The position numbers were made by a program, and so were the translations under genes. 64,000 bases of DNA from positions 1-64,000 of the forward strand of contig JAABTQ010000015.1 of assembly GCA_011389745.1 (NCBI GenBank). Reading direction: 5' to 3'. The DNA comes from Desulfobacteraceae bacterium. GTDB lineage: Bacteria; Desulfobacterota; Desulfobacteria; Desulfobacterales; SKZT01. The first letter of the stretch is position 1. Every line of letters starts with the position of its first letter. Shown one piece after another: positions 550 through 49,111 of the stretch. The notes under the pieces are model-generated. The model was given only the letters and a program-made list of their open reading frames with translations. It searched no databases and was not told where the DNA came from.

Positions 550-966
550 TTAGAATTGTGCATAATTGCAATCTTGTAGAGACAAGGCATGCCTTGTCTC
601 TACGTTCGTTGACGCGTACCCCTGTACCAGATAATCCTTGAGGCGTTTCGTGGCCCACTGGCGGAATTGGGTGCCCCGCTTTGATTTTACCCGGTAGCCT
701 ACGGAGATGATGACGTCCAGGTTGTAATGCGCTACCTGATATGTTTTTCCGTCTGCTGCAGTTGTCGCAAAATTTGCGACAACTGATTTTTCATCAAGCT
801 CTCCTTCTTTAAACACATTATTGACATGCTTTCCTATGGTTTTGATATCGCGATCGAAAAGCAGCGAGAGCTGATTTCGATTCAACCAGACTGTTTCCTG
901 GTCAAAAAACACTTCAACCGCGGTTTCGTTGTCCCTGGTGGTATAAATTTCAACCTGGTTTTTCAC
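550..966 (-). pseudogene. Truncated RhuM-family protein ending in a REP-encoded tail
   Basis: A 138-codon frame begins at GTG 966, overlapping the hsdS stop codon (GTGA). Residues 1 to about 120, including VWLNRNQLSLLFDRDIKTIG and YNLDVIISVGYRVKSKRGTQ, are the N-terminal RhuM-type domain often found beside type I restriction genes. RhuM proteins are usually over 300 residues. Here, just after KRLKDYLVQGY, the frame runs into the palindromic REP (576-603), picks up VETRHALSLQ and stops seven residues later. I read this as a gene cut short by the REP/RAYT insertion; the missing part could lie left of the window. The cellular role of RhuM is poorly defined. Translational coupling to hsdS suggests co-expression before disruption. 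Confidence 0.8.
576..603. repeat. 28-bp perfect palindromic REP element, copy 1
   Basis: The arm GTAGAGACAAGGCA is followed directly by its exact reverse complement, giving a 28-bp palindrome. It lies inside the 3' end of the truncated rhuM-like frame, where it encodes VETRHALSL. The same arm is the building block of the tandem array at 1-224, and the whole palindrome recurs at 2375-2402. It is the likely substrate of the adjacent RAYT (inference from family behaviour). Confidence 0.95.
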
Positions 967-2324
967 TTGTTTTTTTCCTGTTTTTTTGCAGACCGACCGG
1001 ATTTTCCTTTTTGAATCCTTTCCAGCAGCTTATGCGCGGGCTCCCAATCCGGCTCCCGGCGGCAGGCCGCAAGTTCTGCTTCACTGAGCAGTTGTCCGGC
1101 AAAGGCTTTTTTCAGAATGCTCTGACGCAGGGCTTCGGCTTTTTCAAGGCTCTGGTCGATGCTATCGGCCAGTTTGTCGCAGAGGGAGAGGCGGGATTCG
1201 ATGGCGGAGACGATGGCGGTTTGTTCATCCAAAGTTGGCGGTATAGGTATCTCAGTATTTTTTACTTTCTTTAAAATAATTCTTTTTATGGCTGTACCTG
1301 TCATTTGCCCCGTCATTTCTTTGAAACCCGTGGGACTTTGAATATAATATTTTATATACGAACTGGTGAGCGTTTCTTTGTTTGGTCTAATCATGCAAAC
1401 ACTTGATAACAAGCTAATTGGTTCTTTAAAAATATTGAGGGTAACATTTCCTGTGTTTACACCATCTTTGGTCAATAGAACATCACCGAATTTTGGGTCA
1501 CACCTATTGTAAATGCTTTCATGAAAATCATAATCAACGTATTCAATATTAAACAAATCCATATGATTATTACGAATATTCTTAGATGTAACATATGGAT
1601 ACTGGTAAGCCCCTTTTTCAGCGTACTTTTTTTTGGGAGAAAAGTGTGATCCATCTTGAACCTTCTCACACACTTCACCCAACTTCACCCAGTTCCAACC
1701 TTTGGATAAGCCTGTCTGCTTCTCCCGCCACTCCTTGGTCAACTCCCCCTCAAAAGCCTTTTTCAGCACGGCCTGGCGGTAGATGTCCAGTTTGGTTTTG
1801 GCGGTTTTGAGGTTGGCGATGCCGTTGTCCAGATCACTGAAGAGCTTCTCTATTTTGGAGACGATGGCGCGTTGTTCGGGGAGGGGAGCGAGGGGAAATG
1901 TAATGTCTCGAAGGTTATTTAAATTAACTCCTAAAACCGTTGTCCCGCTTGATACTTTTAGAATTTTTCCTTTAAGATTCAAAAAGGTATAATAAAGAAA
2001 TTTATTATCAATATCAATTCTGGGCTTGACGATTTTCAGATCCTGATTGATAGCAGCGCGTATTTTATTACGTATCGGTTTGCCTGGATTAATTCTCGTA
2101 GCCAAAATTATTTCTTCAGGCTGGGCCAAATTCGCGGCGCTGTTCTTTAAACCTTTTTCGGTAATATAATCCTTCGTATCCGTTAAATAACCACCTTTAA
2201 TATCCTTAATGGAAGCCCAAGGGATATCTCCATTCCAGTAGGACGACTTATTTTTACTTGGTGTCCCACCCCCGACAAAGTCGCAAACATTCCCCAATTC
2301 CGTTTCAACCCAATCTTCTCTCAT
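963..2324 (-). CDS. hsdS: Type I restriction-modification specificity subunit HsdS
   Basis: A 453-residue protein. HsdS provides the DNA-recognition module of type I systems. Two variable target-recognition domains (about residues 1-145 and 205-365) alternate with two conserved helical spacers: LPEQRAIVSKIEKLFSDLD to LKKAFEGELT (about 148-200) and LDEQTAIVSAIESRLSLCD to LKKAFAGQLL (about 368-425). This is the expected full-length two-TRD layout. The start ATG 2324 follows AAGGTC. The gene lies downstream of hsdR in the same direction, with a REP palindrome in the 158-bp gap, and overlaps the rhuM-like frame. A methyltransferase partner (HsdM) is needed for function but none is visible in this window. 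Confidence 0.93.
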   Translation of the reverse strand: MREDWVETELGNVCDFVGGGTPSKNKSSYWNGDIPWASIKDIKGGYLTDTKDYITEKGLKNSAANLAQPEEIILATRINPGKPIRNKIRAAINQDLKIVKPRIDIDNKFLYYTFLNLKGKILKVSSGTTVLGVNLNNLRDITFPLAPLPEQRAIVSKIEKLFSDLDNGIANLKTAKTKLDIYRQAVLKKAFEGELTKEWREKQTGLSKGWNWVKLGEVCEKVQDGSHFSPKKKYAEKGAYQYPYVTSKNIRNNHMDLFNIEYVDYDFHESIYNRCDPKFGDVLLTKDGVNTGNVTLNIFKEPISLLSSVCMIRPNKETLTSSYIKYYIQSPTGFKEMTGQMTGTAIKRIILKKVKNTEIPIPPTLDEQTAIVSAIESRLSLCDKLADSIDQSLEKAEALRQSILKKAFAGQLLSEAELAACRREPDWEPAHKLLERIQKGKSGRSAKKQEKNK

Positions 2325-2374
2325 GACCTTATGATGATTCTCATTGTTATTCTATTGTTTGTTGGCATGTCGTT

Positions 2375-2402
2375 GTAGAGACAAGGCATGCCTTGTCTCT
2401 AC
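2375..2402. repeat. 28-bp perfect palindromic REP element, copy 2
   Basis: Identical in all 28 positions to the palindrome at 576-603. It lies in the 158-bp gap between hsdR and hsdS, where a hairpin of this size in the transcript could attenuate hsdS expression or act as an mRNA stabiliser (inference). No T-run follows it on either strand, so a classical terminator role is not supported. Confidence 0.95.
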
Positions 2403-2482
2403 AGGACCGGGCAATACCAAATTAGCACGTACCCAATCTGTGGAAAAGGACCCTTTTCCCGTTGGATATTTCCCCGCAACCA

Positions 2483-5275
2483 TTATGCCGCCAACGCCTC
2501 ATTCAATTCTTCCAGCAACTCACCGGACTGGTCGCCGAAAAGCAGCCACATCTTTCCTCTGCCGCCCTTGGCGTCAAAGGGCGTGTAGTCCAGATCGTCC
2601 AAGGCCACATGAAAACTGGCGGCCACATGATCCTTGAGCAGGCGCAGCCATTCCATCTGCTCTTCGCTGAATTTTTGCCCGGCGCCGCCGTGTTTTTTAA
2701 AAATCCAGTCCTTGAAATTTTTATCCACGATGTGATTGTACGGCGTGAGCCGGCTGTCAATGCCGGCCACTCGACGGATCAGCGAAACCAGGGTCACCAG
2801 TTCACTTTTGGGGCTATTGCCCTTAACCTCTTCCAACTGGGCATAGGCTTCCCACACATAATGCGGGGCCAGCAGCGGCTTTTCCCGCTTCAGGATTTCC
2901 AGCACCTTCTTGATCATGGCAAAGGTCAGTTCCCGGCGGCGATACGGCTGATCGTAAAAAATGCGTAACGCGATAATTTCGTCCTTGTTGGCTTCAATGT
3001 AGGCGCTAAAATCCTGAACTACCTGCCGGGCCTTTTCCGTGGAAAAGCTGTCCCACTCGGCCTTTGTGAGCTTGTCCGGGTTGACCGTGTCTATGATCTG
3101 CTCATGGAATTTGCGCACATTTTCGATGGTTTCATTCATCTCTCCGGTAAAAACGGACGTAGCTTGCCGCCGCAGGGCATCCAGTTCCTTTTCAACCGCC
3201 TGTTTGATTTCAACCGGCGGAAAACCCGGTTTTGCCTGCTCGATTTTTGATTGTACCTTCTCGATGGTGTCCGGGTTGTAGACATTGAGCAGATCACCGG
3301 CCGCCTGGTTGATGGTTTTACCGCCGGAGAGTTTTTCAAACCGGGCCTGTTCGTCTTTGGTGAGCAGCCTTTGCAGACGGATGAGCCGGTTTGCCAGAGA
3401 GGTGAACAGGTCTTCGTCCTGAACACCCATGGCCACGGCCCCCAGCAGGTCCTTTAAGGCCACGGCCGGTTTGCGCTCCAGGGGCCGGGAGTCGGTTTTT
3501 TTGGATTTGACAGCCCCCACGGCATCCACAATCACAAAATGGGTCTTGGTGTGGCGGGCCATGCGGGTTACCTTTTTTAAATCGTCAAAATGGAGGGTGC
3601 GGGTGCCCCGGCCCTTCATCTGCTCAAAATAGTTGATGCTTTTGACATCACGCATGAACAGCAGCACCTCCAGGGGTTTGACATCCGTACCCGTGGCGAT
3701 CATGTCCACGGTCACGGCAATGCGCGGGGCCCAGGAGTTGCGGAAGCGGGTCAGGACCGATTTGGGATCTTCATCCGCCTTGTAGGTGATCTTCTTGCAG
3801 AAATCATTGCCTTCACCAAACTCCTCCCGGATGATCTGGATAATATCGTCGGCGTGGCTGTCGGTCTTGGCAAAGATTAGGGTTTTGGGTACTTCAAATT
3901 CACCCTTTTCATCCACGCGATCCGGAAAAATGGTCGGCAGAGCCTCTTTATACGCCCGGATAATATGGCGTATCTGGCTGGGATTGACCACCTCTTTGTC
4001 CAGCTGGCCGGCCGTGTATTCGTAATCTTCATCCAGTTGTTCCCAGCGTTTTTTGCGGCTCAGCTTTTCCCGCTTGTCCACATATTCCATGGCCTTGATT
4101 TTGGCCCCGGCCCGGGTGATTTCCGTTTCAATGGTGAATATGTCATAGGGCACGTTCACCCCGTCAATCACCGATTCTTCATAGGTGTATTCGCTGACCA
4201 CGTTTTCATTGAAGAAACCGAAGGTGCGCTTGTCGGGCGTGGCGGTCAGGCCCACCAGAAAGGCGTCAAAGTATTCCAGCACCTGCTTCCACAAGTTGTA
4301 GATGGAACGGTGACACTCATCAATGATGATAACGTCAAACTGCTCCACGGGGTATCGGGGCGTGAACGCCACGGGGATGGGCTCTTTTTTCTGCCATTGC
4401 CAGGCGGATTCGTTGGGGTTTTCCAGCTCCGCGGCTTCATCCATCTCTTCTCCCTTTAAAATGGAATAAAGGCGCTGAATGGTGGAGATGCAGACCTGGC
4501 TGTCCGAGGCGATATAGCCCGAGTTCAGGCGCTGCACGTTATATAGCTCCGTGAATTTGCGGTTGTCGTCCGTGGGCTGATATTTTAAAAACTCCTGCTC
4601 GGCCTGTTCGCCCAGGTTTCGGGTATCCACCAGAAACAGAATGCGTTTGGCATTGGCGTGTTTCAACAACCGATAGACAAAGGTGCAGGCGGTGAAGGTT
4701 TTTCCGGCGCCGGTGGCCATTTGAATCAGGGCTTTTGGCCGGTTCTCCTTAAATGACGTTTCCAGGTTCCGGATGGCCCTGATCTGGGCGGGACGCAATC
4801 CCTGTTCATCCAGACCGGGCATGTTTTGGAGCTTTGCCCGCAGGGTTTCCGCCTGTCCTCGCCATGCTGCCAACGTCTCGGGTTTGTGGAAATGAAACAC
4901 CGGCCGGGATCTCGGTTTCGGGTCCCGGTAATCGGTGAACCGGGTCAGCACGCCGGTGCTTTCATACACAAACGGCAGGGGTTCTTTGTTGAGATTATAT
5001 TTTAACGTGGCCTGGGCATACCACGAAGCCTGGTCTTCGTGAGTCGTAAGCCCCTCTCCTTCTTCTTCCCGCTTAGCCTCGATGATGCCGGCGGGTTTTC
5101 CGTCCGCAAACAAGACATAATCAGCCGGGCCGACATCGGTCTGGTATTCTCTGACCGCCACGCCTTTGCCGGCAGCCAGATTCACCTTGTTTTTGGATTG
5201 CACCACCCATCCGGCCGCAACCAGCATCTTGTCGATTTCGTCCCGCGCTTTCTGCTCTGGTGTTTGATTTGTCAT
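2483..5275 (-). CDS. hsdR: Type I restriction endonuclease subunit R (EcoEI-like HsdR)
   Basis: A 930-residue translocase/nuclease subunit. The N-terminal nuclease has Asp52 in GPADYVLF and Glu66-Ala67-Lys68 (PD-(D/E)xK fold). The helicase core shows Walker A ATGAGKT (187-193), DECH (319-322), a following GLTATP motif, and a late motif MKGRGTRT. The C-terminal region resembles the EcoEI_R_C domain, ending in WLRLLKDHVAASF and DLDYTPFDAKGGRGK. Length and motifs look intact. Together with HsdS and HsdM it would cut unmodified DNA after ATP-driven translocation. No hsdM lies upstream: the next 750 bp hold a decayed group II intron. A partner could lie left of the window or be absent. Confidence 0.95.
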   Translation of the reverse strand: MTNQTPEQKARDEIDKMLVAAGWVVQSKNKVNLAAGKGVAVREYQTDVGPADYVLFADGKPAGIIEAKREEEGEGLTTHEDQASWYAQATLKYNLNKEPLPFVYESTGVLTRFTDYRDPKPRSRPVFHFHKPETLAAWRGQAETLRAKLQNMPGLDEQGLRPAQIRAIRNLETSFKENRPKALIQMATGAGKTFTACTFVYRLLKHANAKRILFLVDTRNLGEQAEQEFLKYQPTDDNRKFTELYNVQRLNSGYIASDSQVCISTIQRLYSILKGEEMDEAAELENPNESAWQWQKKEPIPVAFTPRYPVEQFDVIIIDECHRSIYNLWKQVLEYFDAFLVGLTATPDKRTFGFFNENVVSEYTYEESVIDGVNVPYDIFTIETEITRAGAKIKAMEYVDKREKLSRKKRWEQLDEDYEYTAGQLDKEVVNPSQIRHIIRAYKEALPTIFPDRVDEKGEFEVPKTLIFAKTDSHADDIIQIIREEFGEGNDFCKKITYKADEDPKSVLTRFRNSWAPRIAVTVDMIATGTDVKPLEVLLFMRDVKSINYFEQMKGRGTRTLHFDDLKKVTRMARHTKTHFVIVDAVGAVKSKKTDSRPLERKPAVALKDLLGAVAMGVQDEDLFTSLANRLIRLQRLLTKDEQARFEKLSGGKTINQAAGDLLNVYNPDTIEKVQSKIEQAKPGFPPVEIKQAVEKELDALRRQATSVFTGEMNETIENVRKFHEQIIDTVNPDKLTKAEWDSFSTEKARQVVQDFSAYIEANKDEIIALRIFYDQPYRRRELTFAMIKKVLEILKREKPLLAPHYVWEAYAQLEEVKGNSPKSELVTLVSLIRRVAGIDSRLTPYNHIVDKNFKDWIFKKHGGAGQKFSEEQMEWLRLLKDHVAASFHVALDDLDYTPFDAKGGRGKMWLLFGDQSGELLEELNEALAA

Positions 5276-5329
5276 AGATTGTTACGATCAATTCTTTTGA
5301 TGCTGTGGGCACATAGTTATTTGTGTGAA

Positions 5330-5897
5330 TCCTGTCAATTTAAACATTGGCATAAACATTAGCCGAAGGCAAGGGCGCAACCGCGAGGGACCGTCTGAAA
5401 GCGCACTGAAGCGGAAGGCTCGCTTGCCGGAAGACTCCAGCTATCGACCCTTGCCGGTTAAACGGGTGGAAATTCCCAAACCTGCGGGTGATACGTCCTT
5501 TGGGTATTCCAACCGTCACAGACCGGTTGAAAGCCTCAGGTGATGATTCCTGTCTTTGATCCGGAGTTTTCAGATTCAAGGCTATGGGTTCAGGCCCGCA
5601 TACTTGTGAAAAGCCATCGGGCCATTCATGAGCTTTTCCCGTAAAGGCCCATGGAAATGTGCCCGGACATTAGGTGCGCAAACCGGCATGACCATTAAGT
5701 GGATTAAGGATCAAGGTCTGCTGTCTTTCAAAGAACTGAGGGTTTAACCTGTTGAATAGGGTTCTCTTTGGGAATTCAACAGGGTAAAAATTCATTACGC
5801 GACTACGGTCCGGTAATTTAAGTGAAACGCCCGGTGTGGACCCGCATGCCGGGTGTTTTGGGGGCTGGGGGAGAAAAACTCCCGGCTGCCCGATTAC
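5330..5897 (+). mobile_element. Degraded group II intron
   Basis: Fragments of a bacterial group II intron fill most of the hsdR-relB gap. The segment at about 5360-5400 (GCCGAAGGCAAGGGCGCAAC, then CCGCGAGGGACCGTCTGAA) resembles domain I sequence. A frameshifted, internally deleted intron-encoded protein follows (separate entry). The 3' end has a domain V-like hairpin (CGCCCGGTGTGG, then CCGCATGCCGGGTG, about 5829-5857), a domain VI-like hairpin (GGGGCTGGGGGAG, then CTCCCGGCTGCCC, about 5861-5891), and ends near CCGATTAC. The 5' boundary is uncertain. With an incomplete protein and missing RNA domains it should not be able to move. Assignment rests on recognised sequence patterns rather than a covariance search. 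Confidence 0.7.
5400..5747 (+). pseudogene. Remnant of group II intron-encoded reverse transcriptase/maturase
   Basis: Pieces of one protein appear in three frames. First, SSYRPLPVKRVEIPKPAG (about 5438-5490), the N-terminal RT block. Then, shifted, RPLGIPTVTDRL followed by IPVFDPEFSDS and YGFRP, the RT motif series that normally continues into GRSAH. Then, after a large deletion removing the YxDD active site, a C-terminal DNA-binding block SRKGPWKCARTLGAQTGMTI (about 5634-5693) ending KDQGLLSFKELRV at TAA 5747. At least two frameshifts and the missing catalytic core make this a clear pseudogene. It sits inside the intron remnant in the same orientation, as expected for a domain IV-encoded protein. 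Confidence 0.8.
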
Positions 5898-5958
5898 TCC
5901 CTCTCAAAACACCATGTTCGCTTAAACATGCTGATATTGCAAATGAAATTAAGAGTGT

Positions 5959-6010
5959 TTGATTTTTTGGTATTTTGATGTATATTTATTGTATTGCAAT
6001 CGTCAATACA
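5959..6010 (+). promoter_or_regulatory. relB promoter with overlapping inverted-repeat operator
   Basis: A -35-like TTGATT (5959-5964) and -10-like TATATT (5981-5986) are 16 bp apart. Directly downstream is the inverted repeat TGTATTG (5990-5996) with CAATACA (6004-6010), perfect 7-bp arms with a 7-bp spacer, covering the expected start of transcription. The relB ribosome site AGGAGTAGG follows. RelB-type antitoxins usually repress their own promoter through such a site; that this one binds RelB is inference. Confidence 0.65.
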
Positions 6011-6025
6011 AATTAGGAGTAGGTT

Positions 6026-6286
6026 ATGGCAAAAACAGCAATAATTCAAACTCGTGTCGATCCGGCGGTAAAGCATAATGCCCAAATTATATTGAAAAAG
6101 CTGAACATTTCAATGTCAGAGGCAATATCAATGTACCTATCGCAGATCACATTACATAATGGAATCCCGTTTGAAATAAAACTGCCCAGCGATGTAACAG
6201 CTAAAACACTGAAGGAATCTGAAAAGGGAGACAATCTTTATACAGTTGAGTCCGTTGATGCGTTGTTCCAGGAGCTTGATAGTTGA
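6026..6286 (+). CDS. relB: RelB/DinJ-family antitoxin
   Basis: An 86-residue protein. The N-terminus (TAIIQTRVDPAVKHNAQIIL, then KKLNISMSEAISMYLSQI) is the ribbon-helix-helix DNA-binding and dimerisation region typical of RelB/DinJ antitoxins; the acidic C-terminal part (about 50-86, ending VESVDALFQELDS) would wrap the toxin. The start is supported by AGGAGTAGG 5-8 bp upstream and a matching operator. It overlaps the following toxin gene by 4 bp (ATGA), the usual coupling. The antitoxin looks intact whereas the toxin is broken, so today it may act only as a repressor or cross-antitoxin (inference). Confidence 0.88.
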   Translation: MAKTAIIQTRVDPAVKHNAQIILKKLNISMSEAISMYLSQITLHNGIPFEIKLPSDVTAKTLKESEKGDNLYTVESVDALFQELDS

Positions 6287-6600
6287 ACATACATTACACA
6301 ACTCAATTTAAAAAGGATTACAAAAGGATCAAGAAACAACACAAAGACCTTTCAAAATTGAGAACCGTTATCGAAAAACTATCTTCAGGACTTGTGTTGG
6401 AACCAATCTATCGGGACCACCCACTTTCAGGGAACTGCGTTTACGACTTTTTGATCAGCCATCATCGATATATGGATTTTCACCGACAGTTCGTGAGATC
6501 TCTAAAAACCGGGGGTTGCCGGTCCGGCCGGAGTGCACCGAATCCTGGGGGTTCTCGAAGAAAATGGGTATATCCGGTCCACAGCCGGAAAATTAAATAA
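6283..6600 (+). pseudogene. RelE/YafQ-type toxin with lost C-terminus
   Basis: The frame starts at TTG/ATG-type position 6283, overlapping relB. The first 50 or so residues (IHYTTQFKKDYKRIKKQHKD, LRTVIEKLSSG, YRDHPLSGN) match the RelE/YafQ N-terminal half. After DHPLSGN the family normally continues with the beta-strands carrying the catalytic residues (a YRECHI/DWLLIY type stretch). Here it switches to unrelated sequence, CVYDFLISHHRYMD and then a basic, Gly/Pro-rich out-of-frame tail. The join falls near 6435. The product would lack the RNase active site and is probably inactive. The new sequence belongs, in other frames, to a LexA-type fragment, so a deletion seems to have fused two genes. 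Confidence 0.7.
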
Positions 6601-7207: not shown

Positions 7208-10200
7208 GTGGAAAATAACATACGGGAGAGGCGGGCCCTTTGTGGGATTTGTCCGGCCGGCTGCTGGGTAATCGCAACCCTTGACAATAATGGAAAAATG
7301 GTATCCGTGCGCGCGGATGAAAGCAGTGACTACGGCATCATCTGTAAACTGGGGGAGCATTCCCCGGAGATTGTTTATTCCGAAAATCGCCTCCGGACCC
7401 CTCTGCGACGCACCGGCCCCAAGGGAACCTATGATTTTGAACCGATCTCCTGGGATGTAGCTTTCGAGGAAATCACCGAACGGCTGAATCGGCTTAAGGA
7501 TGAATCGGGCCCTGAATCGACCGCAATTTATACAGGCCGGGGCAGCTTTGAGCCGGCCATGTGCGACATCTTTCAGCCCGCGGGAGTGGCGGTATCCTCG
7601 GCATCGAGCGTGCTCTTTCCGTTCGGCTCTCCCAATACTATGGGCGTAGGGGCTCTGTGTTACGTTTCCTATGCCATGATCGCGCCCCATGTCACTTTAG
7701 GGGGGATGCACATCAACATGTTCTCCGACATTGAAAACGCGGATCTTATCGTGGTATGGGGGGCAAACCCTGCAACCGACAGCCCTCCGCTCGATCTTGT
7801 GCGTATCCGTGAGGCCGTGTCCAAACGCGGGGCAGAGGTGATCGTTATCGACCCGAGAAGAACCCGTACCGCAAAGGAGACCGGGGGCCGGTGGATTCCT
7901 ATTCGCTCCGGTACTGATGGGGCACTCGCGCTTGGTCTTTGCAATGTTTTGATTAAAGAGGAATGGTATGACGAAGCTTTTGTGCGGGACTGGACTCACG
8001 GGTTCGAGGATTTTTCCCGGTATGTGCAGCATTTCCGGCCCGAGGTGGTGGAACGGATCACCGGCGTCCCGGCCGATACGATACGATCCCTTGCAGAAAG
8101 GATTGTGAATGCCCGTGGGGCTGCTCCCATTATGTATACGGGCCTGGAATACAGCGACAGCGGCGTTCAGGCCATCCGGGCCACCATGATCTTGTGGGCC
8201 CTGGCGGGTCAGATGGATGTGCCGGGAGGCCGTTGCTTTACAATGCCCGGCAACGGTTTTCCGGTCAACCGGAATGGACTGATCCCCAATCCGAATATAA
8301 AAAAAGCCCTTGGGCTGGACAACTTTCCGGTCTACAGTAGCTATAGGGGGGAGTCCCATGCCAATGCCCTTCCTGAATCGGTGCTGGAAAAGCGCCCTTA
8401 TCCGATCCGGGGGATGATCGTTTTAGGCGCCTCAATCACCACCTCCTGGCCCCAGCCCGAGATCTGGCGGAAAACCTTGAACGGGCTTGATTTTCTTGCC
8501 TGCATCGATATCAACCTGACCGCGGATTGCGCGTTTGCAGACATTGTTCTTCCGGCTGCGACCTGGTACGAGATTGAATCCTACATGCGATACGGCCCTA
8601 TTTTCCGGATCCGGGAACGGGTGATTCCACCGGTGGGTGACTCCAGGAACGCATTTTTCATTCTAGCAGAACTCGCAGAGCGCCTTGGGTATGGCCATCT
8701 TTATCCCCAGACTGAGGATGCCCTGTTGCGCCACGCGCTGAAAGCTTCCCCCTTTACCCTGGAAGCGGTGCGGGAAGCCGGCGGCACTGTGCAGGTGGAG
8801 ACTGCCATGATGTCCTACCGGAAATGGGAAAAGGGATTGCTTCGCGCAGACGGAGAACCCGGGTTTGAAACCCCTACCGGAAAGATGGAGATCCATTCCA
8901 CCATTTTGGAGGATCACGGATATGATCCCCTGCCTGTCTATACTGAACCGCGGGAGGGGCCCATGGCCAATCCTGAACTGGCAAAAAGCTTTCCCTTGGT
9001 TTTCAATTCCGGATCAAGGGTCACAACCGATTTCAGAAGTCAGCATCACCACATTCCGGGCCTGGTCAAAGAACGGCCGGAACCTACCGTGATGATGAAC
9101 ACAAAAGATGCCCAGGTCCGGAACATCCGGAACGGGGATGCGGTGGTTGTGAAAAGTCCCCGGGGAAAGACGCGGTTGCGGGCTATTGTCACCGATGACA
9201 TCATTTCCGGCACAATTGACGCAAACATGGGCGGCGGAGGTCCTTTGGGACCCGAGGCCTGGCAGCAGTGCAACATCAACGACCTGACCGATCTGCGTTT
9301 TGATCCCATCTCCGGATTTCCCATCTACAAAGCCCTTCTCTGCGATGTGGCACCCGAGCAAAATGGAGGAAACAATCTCAAGATTGATTCCGGAGAGGGC
9401 TCATTCGATATCGAAGTCAGGGAGGAGATGGCTGCAAAAGTTCCTGCTCGGGCCCGGATCTATCTGGACCACAACGCCACCACATCTCTTGATCCCTTGG
9501 TGCAGCAGGAGATGGATGAGCACATGAGAAGTCATTTTGGTAATCCCTCTTCGGCCTATGACGAGGGCAGGCAGAGCAAGGCGGCGATTGACCGGGGACG
9601 GCGGCGGGTGGCAAATCTTCTCGGATGCACTGCAAAACGGATTATTTTCACCAGCGGCGGTAGCGAGGCCAACAACCTGGTTATCAAAGGGGTGGCGTTT
9701 GCCGCAGTCCGGAAGGGAGCGCACATGATCACCAGTGCAATCGAACATCCCTCCGTACTCAACACCTGCAAGTGGTTGGAAGGATTCGGCATTTCCATTA
9801 CCTACCTGCCGGTGGACGGCAAGGGCTGCGTCAACCCGGACCATCTGGAAAAGGCCATTCGAAAGGAGACTGTCCTGATTTCCGTTATGACCGCCAATAA
9901 CGAAACCGGAGTTGTGCAGCCTATCGAGGCCCTTGCCCAAATCGCAAGAAAAAAAGGAGTTCTCTTTCACACGGATGCGGTGCAGGCCGTGGGCAAAGTC
10001 CCCATTGACGTCAAGACCCTGGGGGTCGATTTTCTGAGCTTATCTTCCCATAAATTTCATGGCCCAAAAGGGGTAGGGGCGTTATACATGCACAAAGGAA
10101 CTGAGCTTCCCCCCTTAATCCATGGCGGAAACCAGGAGGGAGGCCGGCGAGCCGGAACCGAAAACAGCATCGGCATCATCGGCTTGGGCAAGGCTGCGGA

Positions 10201-10612
10201 ACTTGCGGAATCCCGGCTTCCGGAGATGGGAACCCGGGTGGCAAGGTTGCGGGACAGACTTGAAAACGGCGTCTGCAGCCGCTTTCCCGAAGCCAGAGTC
10301 AATGGTTGTTTCAGCAATCGGCTGCCCAACACTTTAAACCTATCCCTGCCCAAAATCCGGGGGGAATCCATGGTCCTGGCTCTGGACGCCGAGGGAGTCT
10401 CCCTTTCTGCCGGCTCCGCGTGCCGGTCCGGATCACCTAAACCCTCCCATGCTCTCATGGCCATGGGAATGGATGAGGAGCAGGCCCACTGCGCCCTCCG
10501 GTTTTCCATGGGTATTCACAATACCGAAGAGCAGATCGACCTGGTGCTGGATGCCCTTGACGATGTAGTCCGAAAATCCATGCAGATGGTTCGTTTCGTC
10601 TCCTGCAGGTAA
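7208..10612 (+). CDS. Metallopterin-dependent ergothioneine synthase-like fusion (bis-MGD oxidoreductase + cysteine desulfurase)
   Basis: A 1134-residue, two-module protein. Residues 1 to about 735 are a DMSO-reductase-family molybdopterin oxidoreductase: a 4Fe-4S motif at Cys12, Cys15, Cys19 and Cys46, Cys151 in GALCYVSY at the position of a metal ligand, and late cofactor-binding blocks (VFNSGSRVTTDFRSQHHH, VVVKSPRGKT). Residues about 752-1134 are a NifS-type cysteine desulfurase (YLDHNATT, TSGGSEANN, PLP-binding Lys949 in SSHKFHGPKG, catalytic Cys1072 in SAGSACRSGS). Family knowledge: this fusion is the architecture described, as I recall, for the Caldithrix abyssi ergothioneine synthase, where desulfurase-derived sulfur replaces the imidazole C-H of trimethylhistidine at the metal centre. 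The egtD gene 31 bp downstream makes that substrate. GTG start after AGGGAG. No Tat signal, so cytoplasmic. Confidence 0.85.
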   Translation: MENNIRERRALCGICPAGCWVIATLDNNGKMVSVRADESSDYGIICKLGEHSPEIVYSENRLRTPLRRTGPKGTYDFEPISWDVAFEEITERLNRLKDESGPESTAIYTGRGSFEPAMCDIFQPAGVAVSSASSVLFPFGSPNTMGVGALCYVSYAMIAPHVTLGGMHINMFSDIENADLIVVWGANPATDSPPLDLVRIREAVSKRGAEVIVIDPRRTRTAKETGGRWIPIRSGTDGALALGLCNVLIKEEWYDEAFVRDWTHGFEDFSRYVQHFRPEVVERITGVPADTIRSLAERIVNARGAAPIMYTGLEYSDSGVQAIRATMILWALAGQMDVPGGRCFTMPGNGFPVNRNGLIPNPNIKKALGLDNFPVYSSYRGESHANALPESVLEKRPYPIRGMIVLGASITTSWPQPEIWRKTLNGLDFLACIDINLTADCAFADIVLPAATWYEIESYMRYGPIFRIRERVIPPVGDSRNAFFILAELAERLGYGHLYPQTEDALLRHALKASPFTLEAVREAGGTVQVETAMMSYRKWEKGLLRADGEPGFETPTGKMEIHSTILEDHGYDPLPVYTEPREGPMANPELAKSFPLVFNSGSRVTTDFRSQHHHIPGLVKERPEPTVMMNTKDAQVRNIRNGDAVVVKSPRGKTRLRAIVTDDIISGTIDANMGGGGPLGPEAWQQCNINDLTDLRFDPISGFPIYKALLCDVAPEQNGGNNLKIDSGEGSFDIEVREEMAAKVPARARIYLDHNATTSLDPLVQQEMDEHMRSHFGNPSSAYDEGRQSKAAIDRGRRRVANLLGCTAKRIIFTSGGSEANNLVIKGVAFAAVRKGAHMITSAIEHPSVLNTCKWLEGFGISITYLPVDGKGCVNPDHLEKAIRKETVLISVMTANNETGVVQPIEALAQIARKKGVLFHTDAVQAVGKVPIDVKTLGVDFLSLSSHKFHGPKGVGALYMHKGTELPPLIHGGNQEGGRRAGTENSIGIIGLGKAAELAESRLPEMGTRVARLRDRLENGVCSRFPEARVNGCFSNRLPNTLNLSLPKIRGESMVLALDAEGVSLSAGSACRSGSPKPSHALMAMGMDEEQAHCALRFSMGIHNTEEQIDLVLDALDDVVRKSMQMVRFVSCR

Positions 10613-10643
10613 GTACGGAATAACCGAAACAAAGGAGCTGGAC

Positions 10644-11678
10644 ATGAAAAAGCAAACGAATGTAAATCAGAGCATTTCCTCCCCAGAAAAGGCTTTTCTT
10701 TGCAAAGGGCTGGAGATTTCCAATTATCTGGATCTTGATTTCAAAGCCGAGATGGAACAGGATGTACGGGAGGGGCTTTCCTGCAGCCAGAAACGTCTGC
10801 CGAGCAAATACTTCTACAATTCCGATGGTTCCAAGCTCTTCGACCAGATCAGCTGCCTGGCCGAATACTACCCTACAAGAACTGAACTGGGCATTCTGGA
10901 AAATGCCGCAGAAGAGATCATGACCTTTTTTGAAAGGGGAAGAGGTGATCTGGTGGAGATTGGTAGCGGTTCGGATCTGAAGATCCGGCGTCTGTTCGAT
11001 TCGGTTTCACCCCTCATGCGCCGCCGAATCCGGTATGTCCCCGTCGATATCAGTGAGTCCTGTCTGATAGAGGCCGCGCAAAACCTTCTCGGAGATTATC
11101 CAGGATTGACCATTCACGGGATCGTGGCCGATTTCACCGGAGATCTCCGAGGCTTGGAAAGAAGTCCAAAGCTTGTCACATTTTTCGGCAGCACCATCGG
11201 CAATTTCCCGGATCAGGAAGGCATCGACCTGCTGTGCGGTTTCGCAAAACTCATGAATCCTGAAGACCGGCTGCTGATCGGCCTGGATATGATCAAACCT
11301 GTTCCTGTGATTGAAGCCGCCTATAACGATGCCTGCGGTATCACGGCAGAATTCAATCTCAACATCCTGCGTAACATCAACCAGACCCTCGATGCCGACT
11401 TCAACCTGGATCATTTTACCCACAAGGCCTTTTTCAATCCGGAAAAGGAGCAGATAGAGATGCATTTGCAAGCCATCGAAACAACTAGTGCATATGTTCC
11501 TGCCATCGATATGACGGTGCGACTCGAATGCGACGAGACCATCCATACCGAAGTGAGCCGGAAATACAACCGACAGAACGCCGAAGAAATCATTACTAAG
11601 GCCGGATTTTCGGTTTCCCGCTGGTACACAGACACCCGTGGATGGTTCTCTCTGGTGGAGCTTGAAAAAAATGGATAA
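10644..11678 (+). CDS. egtD: L-histidine N-alpha-methyltransferase EgtD
   Basis: A 344-residue SAM-dependent enzyme that trimethylates histidine to hercynine, the first step of ergothioneine synthesis. Recognisable EgtD blocks are LPSKYFYNSDGSKLFDQI (about 52-70), CLAEYYPTRTELGIL, the SAM-binding LVEIGSGSDLKIRRLF (about 102-117), and TFFGSTIGNFPDQEG. ATG 10644 follows AAAGGAG by 6 bp. It lies 31 bp after the synthase gene and overlaps the next small membrane protein gene, so the three look like one operon. The gene's presence beside a molybdopterin/desulfurase fusion, rather than beside oxygen-dependent egtB, argues for an anaerobic pathway. Confidence 0.92.
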   Translation: MKKQTNVNQSISSPEKAFLCKGLEISNYLDLDFKAEMEQDVREGLSCSQKRLPSKYFYNSDGSKLFDQISCLAEYYPTRTELGILENAAEEIMTFFERGRGDLVEIGSGSDLKIRRLFDSVSPLMRRRIRYVPVDISESCLIEAAQNLLGDYPGLTIHGIVADFTGDLRGLERSPKLVTFFGSTIGNFPDQEGIDLLCGFAKLMNPEDRLLIGLDMIKPVPVIEAAYNDACGITAEFNLNILRNINQTLDADFNLDHFTHKAFFNPEKEQIEMHLQAIETTSAYVPAIDMTVRLECDETIHTEVSRKYNRQNAEEIITKAGFSVSRWYTDTRGWFSLVELEKNG

Positions 11679-12069
11679 AGAAAAAATAATCAGATTCAAT
11701 CATTTTCTGTTTCGAGTGAGCCTGTTCCAGGGGCTTTTTTATATGGTGACGGGCGTCTGGCCTCTTTTGAGCATGGCCTCGTTTCTTGCGGTGACCGGTC
11801 CCAAAACCGATCTGTGGCTGGTTAAAACCGTCGGAACCCTCCTCATAGTTTCCGGAGCCGTATTCACTGTTGCCGCCCTCCGAAAGCACATCACTTTTGA
11901 AGTGGCATTGCTTGCGGTAGGTTATGCACTGGGATTGGCCATTATAGAAGTGGTTTATGTTTTTAATGGACGGATATCTGCCATCTATCTTCTGGATACT
12001 GTGGTGGAGATCGGGTTGATTATTGCCTGGGTATATGGGTGGTGGATCAGGAGCAAGGAGTCGCTCTGA
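11671..12069 (+). CDS. Small four-helix membrane protein, function unknown
   Basis: A 132-residue protein starting at ATG 11671, inside the egtD stop (ATGGATAA), so translation is probably coupled. An upstream ATG at 11638 would overlap egtD by 41 bases and is less likely. Four hydrophobic helices are seen, roughly residues 15-38, 48-70, 78-98 and 104-124 (for example FLFRVSLFQGLFYMVTGVWP and IYLLDTVVEIGLIIAWVYGW). No catalytic motif is visible and I do not recognise the family. Being coupled to ergothioneine genes, it might affect transport or membrane association of the pathway, but nothing in the sequence proves that. Confidence 0.75.
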   Translation: MDKEKIIRFNHFLFRVSLFQGLFYMVTGVWPLLSMASFLAVTGPKTDLWLVKTVGTLLIVSGAVFTVAALRKHITFEVALLAVGYALGLAIIEVVYVFNGRISAIYLLDTVVEIGLIIAWVYGWWIRSKESL

Positions 12070-46044: not shown

Positions 46045-46436
46045 GATTTAATCTCCATGAAAACTTTTAAGAGTTTCATTTTATTAGAGGGTCATTGCGA
46101 AAACCGCTACAATATTACCTCAACATAGGCGGTAACAAATAATAAAATAAAACGGCTATTAAATCCGGAAATAGGATTATTTTCCACAAAGATTTTTGAC
46201 CCTATTGCAATTTGTTTTGAATGTCAAATCCATATTAAATTTATTTGATAAATCTAATTCATTGTTTGAATTTAAAAAATTAACCGGTAAAGCCTCGTTC
46301 ACAGAAAAATGATGATTAATATAATTAAAACTCAAATACGAAAAGTTAAACAAATATATACTGTTTTATTTAACTCAGACCACACCAAAATATGCACAAA
46401 ATACTAAGTTTTAATTTTCATGAAAGGAATATTCAA
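46045..46436. other. AT-rich intergenic gap
   Basis: About 390 bp between the divergent transglycosylase and msrA genes. It is very AT-rich and shows no coding frame, no convincing hairpin terminator and no clear repeat; GGGTCATTGCGA near 46089 is reminiscent of intergenic repeat ends but too short to call. It must hold both promoters. Confidence 0.5.
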
Positions 46437-47066
46437 ATGATCAATATTACCGTTTTATTTTTAACGATAACAATATCTGTGTTTTGCATTCTGAATATGG
46501 CTTATGCGGAACAAGGGAAAATAAACCCGGATTATTCAGACAGACTGGAAAAAGCAACTTTTGCAGGAGGGTGTTTTTGGTGCATGGAGCCTCCTTTTGA
46601 CAAGCTCAATGGTGTCATTTCCACCACTAGTGGGTATGCGGGAGGCAATGAAATAATGCCTACTTACGAGCAGGTTTCATCTGGCAGGACAGGACATTTT
46701 GAGGCGATTGAGATCGTTTATGATCCTGAGAAGGTCAGCTATGACAAACTGTTGGACGTATTTTGGAAAAATATTGATCCGACTCAGGAAAATGGCCAAT
46801 TTGCCGATATTGGAAAACAATACAGGACAGCAATATTTTTTCATGATGATAACCAGCGAAAGCTTGCTATAGCATCAAAGGAACAGCTTGATAAATCAGG
46901 TATATTTAAAAAACCTGTTGCCACGGAAATTTTGCCGGCCGGAAAATTTTACCCTGCAGAAGATTACCATCAGGATTACTACTTAAAAAATCCGGTTAGA
47001 TACAAGTACTATCGTTTCGGGTCCGGCCGGGACCATTTCCTTAACAAAATTTGGAACAATAAATGA
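46437..47066 (+). CDS. msrA: Peptide methionine sulfoxide reductase A, exported
   Basis: A 209-residue protein from ATG 46437, chosen because GAAAGGAAT is 7 bp upstream and the frame then opens with a signal peptide (INITVLFLTITISVFCILNM, AYA). The MsrA core follows: TFAGGCFWCMEPPF with the catalytic Cys in GCFWC, GYAGG, GRTGHFEAIEIVYDP, and YHQDYYLKNP. The exported location suggests repair of periplasmic proteins. It lies convergent to cysK across a repeat-like gap. Confidence 0.93.
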   Translation: MINITVLFLTITISVFCILNMAYAEQGKINPDYSDRLEKATFAGGCFWCMEPPFDKLNGVISTTSGYAGGNEIMPTYEQVSSGRTGHFEAIEIVYDPEKVSYDKLLDVFWKNIDPTQENGQFADIGKQYRTAIFFHDDNQRKLAIASKEQLDKSGIFKKPVATEILPAGKFYPAEDYHQDYYLKNPVRYKYYRFGSGRDHFLNKIWNNK

Positions 47067-47087
47067 CCGCCGATAAAAAACTAATAG

Positions 47088-47166
47088 CCGGACCGTGTGG
47101 GTGAAAACGAATGTTTCGTTGACCGATTTTTTCGAGCCGACTGATCAATGATATTCTTGGCCTCCT
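47088..47166. repeat. Interspersed-repeat-like segment between msrA and cysK
   Basis: GGACCGTGTGGGTGAAAACG followed by AATGTTTCGTTGACC and, further on, TTCTTGGCCTCCTAAAA resemble, in the same order, GACCGTGCCTGTGAAAACG, AAAGATTCTTCGTCGGCC and GGCCTCCTCAGAATG in the pyrF-glmM gap at 15390-15485. Both lie between convergent genes. Probably diverged copies of one intergenic repeat. Confidence 0.45.
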
Positions 47167-47178
47167 AAAAATTAAAGT

Positions 47179-48105
47179 TTAAAGAAACAATTCCGTACTG
47201 ATATAGCGTTCTCCGGTGCTGGGAAGAATCACCACGATTGTTTTGTTTTCGTATTCGTTACTTTTGGATTTTTGTAAAGCAGCCCATACAGCAGCGCCGG
47301 AAGATATGCCGCAAAGAATGCCCTCCATACTGGATAATGCCCTGGCTGTTTTAAATGCATCTTCGTTGGTCACCTGCACTACCTCATCGATAATGGATTG
47401 ATCCAGCACTTCCGGGATAAACCCGGCCCCGATTCCCTGAATTTTATGTGGTCCGGCCAGACCACCAGATAAAACAGGGGAATCTGCCGGTTCGACAGCA
47501 ATGGCTTTAAAAGTCGGTCTGCGTGATTTGATTATCTGGGAAACGCCTGTAATGGTACCGCCGGTACCAACACCCGCAACAAGCAAATCAACATTTCCTC
47601 CGGTGTCATTCCAGATTTCTTCGGCTGTTGTTTCCCGATGAATTTTAGGATTGGCAGGATTAGTAAATTGGTTGGGCATAAATATATCTTTACCTGAATT
47701 CAATATTTCAAAGGCCTTTTCAATGGCTCCCTTCATTCCCTTGGCCCCGGGAGTCAATACAAGGTCTGCACCAAGATGCTTTAACAACTTTTGTCTCTCT
47801 TTGCTCATGGTGTCGGGCATAGTAAGGCAGAGCCTGTATCCTTTGGCGGCACAAATAAACGCCATGGCAATTCCGGTGTTGCCGCTCGTAGGTTCCACAA
47901 TCAATGTGTGATCACCGATAGCACCTTCATCCTCGGCAGCCTGAATCATGGAAGCGGCAATACGATCCTTGACACTTCCCAAAGGATTGAAAAATTCGAG
48001 CTTGGCAAGAATTTTTGCCTTGGTACCTTTTGTAATACGGTTAAGACGAACCAAAGGGGTAAAACCGATTGTGGATTGTATATCTGAAAAAATTTTCACG
48101 GCCAT
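47179..48105 (-). CDS. cysK: Cysteine synthase A (O-acetylserine sulfhydrylase)
   Basis: A 308-residue PLP enzyme that makes cysteine from O-acetylserine and sulfide. The PLP lysine is Lys46 in [11 protein letters not shown]; the substrate loop is [13 protein letters not shown]; the PLP phosphate loop is [11 protein letters not shown]; and [10 protein letters not shown] follows. ATG 48105 follows GGAGAG. It is 55 bp after cysE in the same direction, forming a cysteine operon. In a sulfate reducer sulfide is abundant, which suits this route. Confidence 0.95.
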
Positions 48106-48160
48106 CTCTCCTTAAAAAGTTCACGCAATCATAACCAATTGGAAAAATGAGGCGAATTGA

Positions 48161-49111
48161 TTATTTGTAAATCAAACGAGGTTTTTCCATGAACACTCGC
48201 GTATCCGGTGGGATGGATTCGGTGATCCAGACGTTTCCACCGATAACCGATCTTGCCCCGATGACCGTGTCACCACCAAGAATAGTAGCTCCCGAATAAA
48301 TAATAGCATCATCTTCAATAGTTGGATGGCGTTTTTTGCCCCGGAGTTGTATTACCGCATCTTTGGAAAGAGATAAAGCCCCAAGGGTTACTCCTTGATA
48401 AATGCGAACATTTTTACCGATGGTCGTTGTTTCTCCGATGACAACACCGGTTCCATGATCGATAACAAAGCTTTCGTCAATGTGGGCGCCGGGATGTATA
48501 TCAATTCCTGTCTTGCTGTGAGCATATTCCGTCATGATTCTCGGAAGCAAAGGGACCTCGAAATGATAGAGTTCGTGAGCTACTCTGTAAACTGTTATAG
48601 CATAAATCCCAGGGTAGCTGAAAATAATTTCATCATAGCTCTTGGCTGCAGGGTCTCCATCGAAAGCGGCCCGAACATCGGTTGCCAACATTTTTCGAAT
48701 CGAAGGAACGCTTTCCAGGACTTTCAGAGAAATCTCATGGCCTTTTTCGTTGCATTCCTGGCAGGAAAGCTCGTAACGAAAGCAGTCGTGACGAATGCTG
48801 CTGACAACCTGTTCTGCGAGCATGGTAAAAAGCTGTGTTACGCATTGACCCATATGAAACCTCAAATTTACAGGGTCTAGTTTTTCAAGGCTGAAATACC
48901 CCGGAAAAAGAATTTCCAAAAATTTGTTGATAATTTTAACAAGAGTATCTCTGGATGGTATTGGCTCATAATCCACATGGTTGTAGCATTCTTTATCACT
49001 ACAGTTTTCAATAATTTCTTGTGCAATTTTCGGCAGCCTGTCACGATATCCTGCCAAAATTTCAACATCTAACTTACACGAAGCATCTGTTGTCTGAGGT
49101 TGATCCTTCAT
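48161..49111 (-). CDS. cysE: Serine O-acetyltransferase
   Basis: A 316-residue acetyltransferase (EpsC/CysE class) making O-acetylserine. The C-terminal left-handed beta-helix shows DIHPGAHIDESFVIDHGTGV and VIGETTTIGKNVRIYQGVTL, then GKKRHPTIEDDAIIYSGATI and GGDTVIGARSVIGGNVWI. The N-terminal 180 residues are helical with several cysteines and are longer than in the short CysE form. ATG 49111. Upstream lies a good minus-strand promoter. It is translated ahead of cysK. Confidence 0.93.
   Translation of the reverse strand: MKDQPQTTDASCKLDVEILAGYRDRLPKIAQEIIENCSDKECYNHVDYEPIPSRDTLVKIINKFLEILFPGYFSLEKLDPVNLRFHMGQCVTQLFTMLAEQVVSSIRHDCFRYELSCQECNEKGHEISLKVLESVPSIRKMLATDVRAAFDGDPAAKSYDEIIFSYPGIYAITVYRVAHELYHFEVPLLPRIMTEYAHSKTGIDIHPGAHIDESFVIDHGTGVVIGETTTIGKNVRIYQGVTLGALSLSKDAVIQLRGKKRHPTIEDDAIIYSGATILGGDTVIGARSVIGGNVWITESIPPDTRVFMEKPRLIYK

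Follow-up and report, generated by a model that had tools for sequence, protein, structure and literature searches.

The closest described system to the one considered here is the metallopterin-dependent ergothioneine synthase (MES) of Caldithrix abyssi, an enzyme of 1136 amino acids published in 2022 (PMC9516567). According to that paper, its C-terminal module has cysteine desulfurase activity, sulfur transfer is obligatorily intramolecular, and sulfur exchange at the metallopterin (the molybdopterin, or MPT, half-reaction) is reversible. The residues discussed are C14/C17/C21/C48 (cluster cysteines), C153 (metal ligand), K952 (the pyridoxal phosphate, or PLP, lysine), and three more cysteines, C1074, C1097, and C1135. 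Ergothioneine production in E. coli was lost when K952, C1074, C1135, or C153 was mutated, with C153S nearly inactive (PMC9516567). The paper counts 55 genomes with an MES-egtD pair, and sulfate reducers may already be among them. Here, we describe a gene fusion and its neighbor egtD in a 64,000-nucleotide stretch of a Desulfobacteraceae bacterium (GenBank assembly GCA_011389745.1, contig JAABTQ010000015.1, positions 1 to 64,000 of the forward strand; hereafter, the window). From their sequences, the two genes very probably form an operon for O2-independent ergothioneine synthesis in which the fusion acts as an MES. The window fusion is a new addition to an already known enzyme class, and the C. 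abyssi enzyme named in the preliminary description of this locus does exist.

The fusion is a single intact open reading frame (ORF) of 1134 codons (Table 1), in which a bis-molybdopterin guanine dinucleotide (bis-MGD) module of the dimethyl sulfoxide (DMSO) reductase family is followed, on the same chain, by a NifS-type cysteine desulfurase. The N-terminal module (N-module) matches the Pfam families Molybdopterin (7.7e-40) and Molydop_binding (2.5e-20) over residues 61-709, and the C-terminal module matches Pfam Aminotran_5 (4.3e-81, residues 751-1112) and NCBIfam FeS_nifS (3.7e-150). All nine residues discussed for the C. abyssi enzyme are kept (C12, C15, C19, C46, C151, K949, C1072, C1095, and C1133), and a C. 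abyssi protein from a metagenome-assembled genome (MAG; locus L110, 1136 residues) carries them at the published numbers. Like its C. abyssi counterpart, C1133 is penultimate, and nearly all complete MES fusions end in -C-R or -C-K. The four cluster cysteines are invariant across four related clades. The preliminary description had located Cys12/15/19/46, Cys151, Lys949, and Cys1072 correctly, and had placed egtD 31 bp beyond the fusion, as it is; its residue list left out the relay cysteine Cys1133 and also Cys1095. The protein begins 11 residues before the [4Fe-4S] cluster, which leaves no room for a signal peptide. An assembly artefact or chance fusion was considered and ruled out, as the same architecture forms one open frame in 13 other Desulfobacterota genomes and in loci from many other phyla.

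Three further cysteines stand out in the comparison of the four clades: C119 is fully conserved in MES alone, C343 also in the sister clade described below, and C712 in all four. They go without mention in the passages of the MES paper (PMC9516567) and are candidates, judged by conservation, for the final relay step.

The product of egtD scores 339 bits against NCBIfam TIGR03438 egtD_ergothio (curated cut-off 290.9) and matches structure 4pim (E 3.4e-65) with the motifs FY[DN]xxGS, GSTIGN, AY[DN]DAxG, and TEVS aligned. There is no egtB in the window, and the 99.9%-complete genome has no EgtB above the cut-off of the family; its highest score, 47.8 bits where 360 is required, excludes an EgtB-type pathway there, in agreement with the preliminary description. 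Of the two alternative routes, EgtB and EanB, the search covered EgtB. Both routes share with the window pair the EgtD first step and a presumed identical product, but the EgtB enzyme is an iron sulfoxide synthase that depends on O2, and EanB is a rhodanese that uses polysulfide. The gene neighborhood is that of a sulfate reducer: QrcB, at 544.6 bits (cut-off 440), and HmcA, at 646 bits (cut-off 400), confirm the Qrc and Hmc complexes reported earlier for the window, and dsrA (613 bits, cut-off 392.85) lies outside it in the same genome. Overall, the window protein and the C. abyssi MES agree in domain order, length (1134 versus 1136 residues), nine residues, egtD partner, and anaerobic host. 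They differ in host, that of the window protein being a dsrA/Qrc/Hmc sulfate reducer, and in that ergothioneine is the predicted product of the window protein.

In a phylogeny of 41 N-modules (LG+C20), the MES proteins form one clade (100/97) that includes the window, C. abyssi, archaeal, Nitrospirota, anammox, and other members. The preliminary description had named a placement outside this clade as refuting its reading, and the window N-module falls inside. Within the clade, the window protein sits with other Desulfobacterota in a subclade distinct from that of C. abyssi. This placement, together with the egtD linkage, speaks against the fusion being instead an ordinary subunit resembling formate dehydrogenase or thiosulfate reductase, joined to a desulfurase for sulfuration of its own molybdenum cofactor and unrelated to ergothioneine. 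General DMSO-reductase-family profiles do match the N-module (Fdh-alpha 280 bits, PhsA 255 bits), but far below their curated cut-offs (666 and 694), and no electron-transfer subunit is conserved next to the MES gene in the loci compared; we regard this explanation as scarcely credible. Acetylene hydratase (2E7Z; match 1.1e-67) and other enzymes of the family share the bis-MGD fold, the N-terminal [4Fe-4S] cluster, and a cysteine metal ligand, yet they have neither a desulfurase module nor an egtD partner and catalyze other reactions. Similarly, NifS and IscS (5WT2, 1P3W) share the PLP lysine and loop cysteine of the C-terminal module, but the window desulfurase is fused to its own sulfur acceptor and ends in an extra -C-R relay cysteine.

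A survey of the kind that the preliminary description had suggested, in 395 Desulfobacterota genomes, identified the fusion in 14 and EgtD in 21. In all 14 fusion genomes, egtD and the fusion are neighbors on one contig (hypergeometric 6e-21). EgtB was found in none of the 14 MES genomes of this sample and in six of the seven egtD genomes without MES (three over the strict cut-off), the seventh being 67% complete (Fisher 1e-4). Given the egtD adjacency, the absence of EgtB, and the presence of dsrA in 8 of the 14 genomes, the fusion and egtD appear, at the gene level, to make up a coherent module for ergothioneine synthesis without O2 that is distributed across sulfate reducers and related bacteria; at this level, the earlier suggestion of an extension to sulfate reducers is supported. 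A wider scan covered a collection of 84,980 species genomes. Of its 40 named fusion loci, 24 have egtD as a direct neighbor and 3 have it at a greater distance; in 5 it is missing although the flank is long enough, and the remaining 8 are truncated at contig ends.

Stand-alone MES modules also occur inside the MES clade (L107, L109, and L118 from archaeal MAGs; L121 and L113), and the fused desulfurase seems to have been lost three times within it. Each of the three archaeal modules has egtD next to it, and no desulfurase closer than a distant one (31%) is encoded in their genomes. Stand-alone modules may use sulfide or polysulfide directly, unlike the C. abyssi MES.

We propose the following route for the window pair. 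EgtD would use S-adenosylmethionine (SAM) to convert histidine to Nalpha-trimethylhistidine (TMH). The PLP domain would move cysteine sulfur onto Cys1072, the persulfide would be carried by the C-terminal Cys1133 to the bis-MGD site, and the metal held by Cys151 would turn into a sulfido species whose sulfur is passed to C2 of the TMH imidazole, giving ergothioneine. That the window organism has the same chemistry and product, a single transcript, and this sulfur route is what we infer by homology with the C. abyssi enzyme. Alternatively, an MES-type sulfurtransferase could serve a physiological substrate or product other than TMH and ergothioneine, for example by running in reverse as a sulfur store or by acting on another histidine betaine. 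The reversible half-reaction of the C. abyssi enzyme (PMC9516567) would allow this, and sister molybdoenzymes paired with a different methyltransferase (below) indicate that the substrate probably changes within the superfamily. The nesting of the window protein in the MES clade, its invariable egtD neighbor in the 14 Desulfobacterota genomes, and the curated equivalog match of EgtD all speak against it, and we consider it improbable.

Some observations weigh against an operon for ergothioneine synthesis. The yields of MES homologues in E. coli range about thousandfold, from 0.4 to 420 uM (PMC9516567), so good activity does not follow from conserved residues alone. Others concern origin. The window N-module is closest to those of Desulfobacterota outside its order and of MAG records such as Phox-21 (about 75% identity in the module). 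The fusion was present in 2 of 96 relatives searched (own genome included), and the other carrier among the 95 close relatives (G060, same order, 58% identity) is placed elsewhere in the tree. GC content at third codon positions (GC3) is 0.63 in the fusion gene versus 0.46-0.52 in three other window genes. This patchy placement and the GC3 difference suggest that the fusion was horizontally acquired, the high GC3 pointing to a recent transfer. Type I restriction-like genes (specificity and R subunits) and a RelB/RelE-like pair, recognized by eye, lie upstream at 963-6600; with the high GC3 they are consistent with a variable island.

The pair might, then, be a recently acquired island that is silent or decaying. 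The scattered occurrence, the GC3 values, and the restriction-like and toxin-antitoxin-like genes upstream would fit, but both frames are intact, the catalytic residues are complete, a ribosome-binding site precedes egtD, and transfer does not imply silence. A silent island thus seems unlikely, and a working operon for O2-independent ergothioneine synthesis remains our preferred reading.

The sister group of MES is a stand-alone Desulfobacterota molybdoenzyme of about 736 residues, 50-53% identical to the MES N-module and found in six relatives of the window genome, one of them congeneric. It forms a monophyletic clade (100/100) that is sister to MES (100/100) in the same tree. The wider scan recovered 34 close members (L058-L091; for example, the locus at L064:4920-8202), all from lineages of sulfate reducers, with 63-100% identity to the query and a sharp fall to 53% at the onset of MES; further loci of the clade are L003-L008 and L045-L050. 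Cultured hosts include Desulfobacter latus, Desulfonema magnum, Dethiosulfatarculus sandiegensis, two Desulfoluna species, and Desulfosarcina cetonica. None of the loci L058-L091 has a fused desulfurase or an adjacent egtD, and EgtD is absent from all six sister-family genomes of the 395-genome sample; because it lacks both the fusion and the egtD partner of MES, we call this molybdoenzyme MES-like rather than MES. All 33 complete tails read D-[PA]-[STN]-[LY]-G-C-[VGC]-G, with an invariant C-terminal GC[VGC]G. A third, more distant stand-alone group (L051-L057, 44-48% identity) has neither egtD nor an OvoM-like gene adjacent.

In place of egtD, a methyltransferase of about 314 residues, which we refer to as Trm112-OvoM, adjoins the sister molybdoenzyme in 31 of 34 loci. 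It can be seen in 32 loci and is upstream in the same orientation in 30 of them; the genomes of the two loci in which it is not in view carry it elsewhere. In the 395-genome sample, it is present in 6 of 6 sister-molybdoenzyme genomes (1e-6 against the 44 genomes that hold a full-length homologue of any kind). Any third gene recurs in at most 4 of the 34 loci, so no electron-transfer subunit is associated with the molybdoenzyme. The methyltransferase combines a Trm112-like zinc ribbon with a domain resembling TIGR04345 ovoA_Cterm, which all 20 aligned members match at E <= 1e-6; the three members with bits shown score 100, 107, and 123, under the curated cut-off of 170. Against the PDB, its profile best matches OvsM (1.7e-31), OvoM (9.8e-29), and OvoA (2.1e-28), followed by a generic methyltransferase (8.7e-12). 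An AlphaFold2 model (predicted local distance difference test score 88) is likewise closest to OvoM, OvoA, and OvsM (Z 23.7-24.8; next Z 18.5). OvoM, OvoA, and OvsM are 5-thio- or 5-selenohistidine N-methyltransferases. Relative to OvoM, OvsM, and the OvoA C-terminal domain (9bxl, 9bxh, 8khq), whose fold and profile it shares, the sister-family protein has the extra N-terminal zinc ribbon, and it pairs with a molybdoenzyme rather than an OvoA-type iron sulfoxide synthase. The latter domain exceeded its cut-off in none of 11 sister-type genomes, and all 7 OvoA control genomes were positive.

On balance, we think it slightly more likely than not that the sister clade makes 5-thiohistidine without oxygen, with sulfur delivered through the GC[VGC]G tail, and that Trm112-OvoM methylates the product to ovothiol A or a relative. 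We infer the C5 position of the sulfur from the methyltransferase only, and resemblance of a methyltransferase does not by itself show its substrate. If so, MES may belong to a larger group of molybdopterin enzymes that transfer sulfur to derivatives of histidine. No description of a molybdopterin-dependent or O2-independent ovothiol route was found in the literature, with most subscription journals and bioRxiv preprints outside coverage, and the sister operon is apparently undescribed.

Trm112-OvoM homologues (340-415 bits) occur in about 37 further Desulfobacterota genomes. In 12 of 20 such loci (L145, L146, L148, L149, L152-L158, and L162), the homologue lies beside a different, distant molybdoenzyme of about 687 residues that starts TVCRLCSSCCP. 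This is a second, independent pairing; membership of this second molybdoenzyme (group B) in the MES clade was considered and rejected, as a very long branch separates it. In four loci (L151:4727-6787, L164:2459-4489, L159, and L163), the OvoM-like gene is near a cobalamin-binding radical SAM protein of about 690 residues and not a molybdoenzyme.

Table 1. Coordinates of the fusion gene, egtD, and their features in the window.
Feature	Position	Strand	Basis
MES-type fusion protein, 1134 residues, GTG start	7208..10612	+	ORF, domains, MES clade placement
N-terminal bis-MGD module, residues 1-717, [4Fe-4S] ligands C12/C15/C19/C46	7208..9358	+	Pfam, residues
Cys151 codon, predicted Mo/W ligand (C. 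abyssi Cys153)	7658..7660	+	invariant in MES and related clades
NifS-type cysteine desulfurase module, residues 746-1134	9443..10609	+	Aminotran_5, FeS_nifS
Lys949 codon, PLP lysine (C. abyssi Lys952)	10052..10054	+	residue comparison with passages of PMC9516567
Cys1072 codon, desulfurase persulfide cysteine (C. abyssi Cys1074)	10421..10423	+	residue comparison with passages of PMC9516567
Cys1133 codon, penultimate relay cysteine (C. abyssi Cys1135)	10604..10606	+	residue comparison; conserved -C-[RK] end
AAGGAG ribosome-binding site of egtD, inside the 31-nt gap	10632..10637	+	sequence
egtD, histidine Nalpha-trimethyltransferase, 344 residues	10644..11678	+	TIGR03438, 4pim motifs

Several neighboring features were also recorded. 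An ORF at 11638-12069 (start possibly 11668), considered as a third operon gene, matches no family, and no third gene is kept beside MES in most loci. The window starts with a perfect 21-bp tandem repeat, TGCCTTGTCTCTACCGGGGCA, of 10.7 copies (1-224), and genes resembling msrA, cysK, and serine acetyltransferase, recognized by eye at 46392-49111, are a possible local cysteine supply. Elsewhere, a betaine-type ATP-binding cassette (ABC) transporter with an OpuAC substrate-binding domain fused to its permease lies near MES in anammox and Zixibacteria loci (L095, L096, L099, L101, L103, and L104), and a transporter ATPase is near MES in L114, L121, and L129. The OpuAC-type transporter possibly carries TMH or ergothioneine.

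Finally, ergothioneine is mostly viewed as an antioxidant connected with oxygen. A complete, closely linked gene pair for an O2-free route in bacteria with dsrA raises the question of what the compound does in sulfidic, anoxic cells. Among the 395 Desulfobacterota genomes, those with EgtD fall neatly into two groups, one with MES and the other with EgtB, so that the pathway can be predicted from sequence. The sister family offers a two-gene cassette in named, cultured sulfate reducers; if the proposed ovothiol route is true, the family would account for a capacity of strict anaerobes to make ovothiol and would matter more than the MES pair itself.

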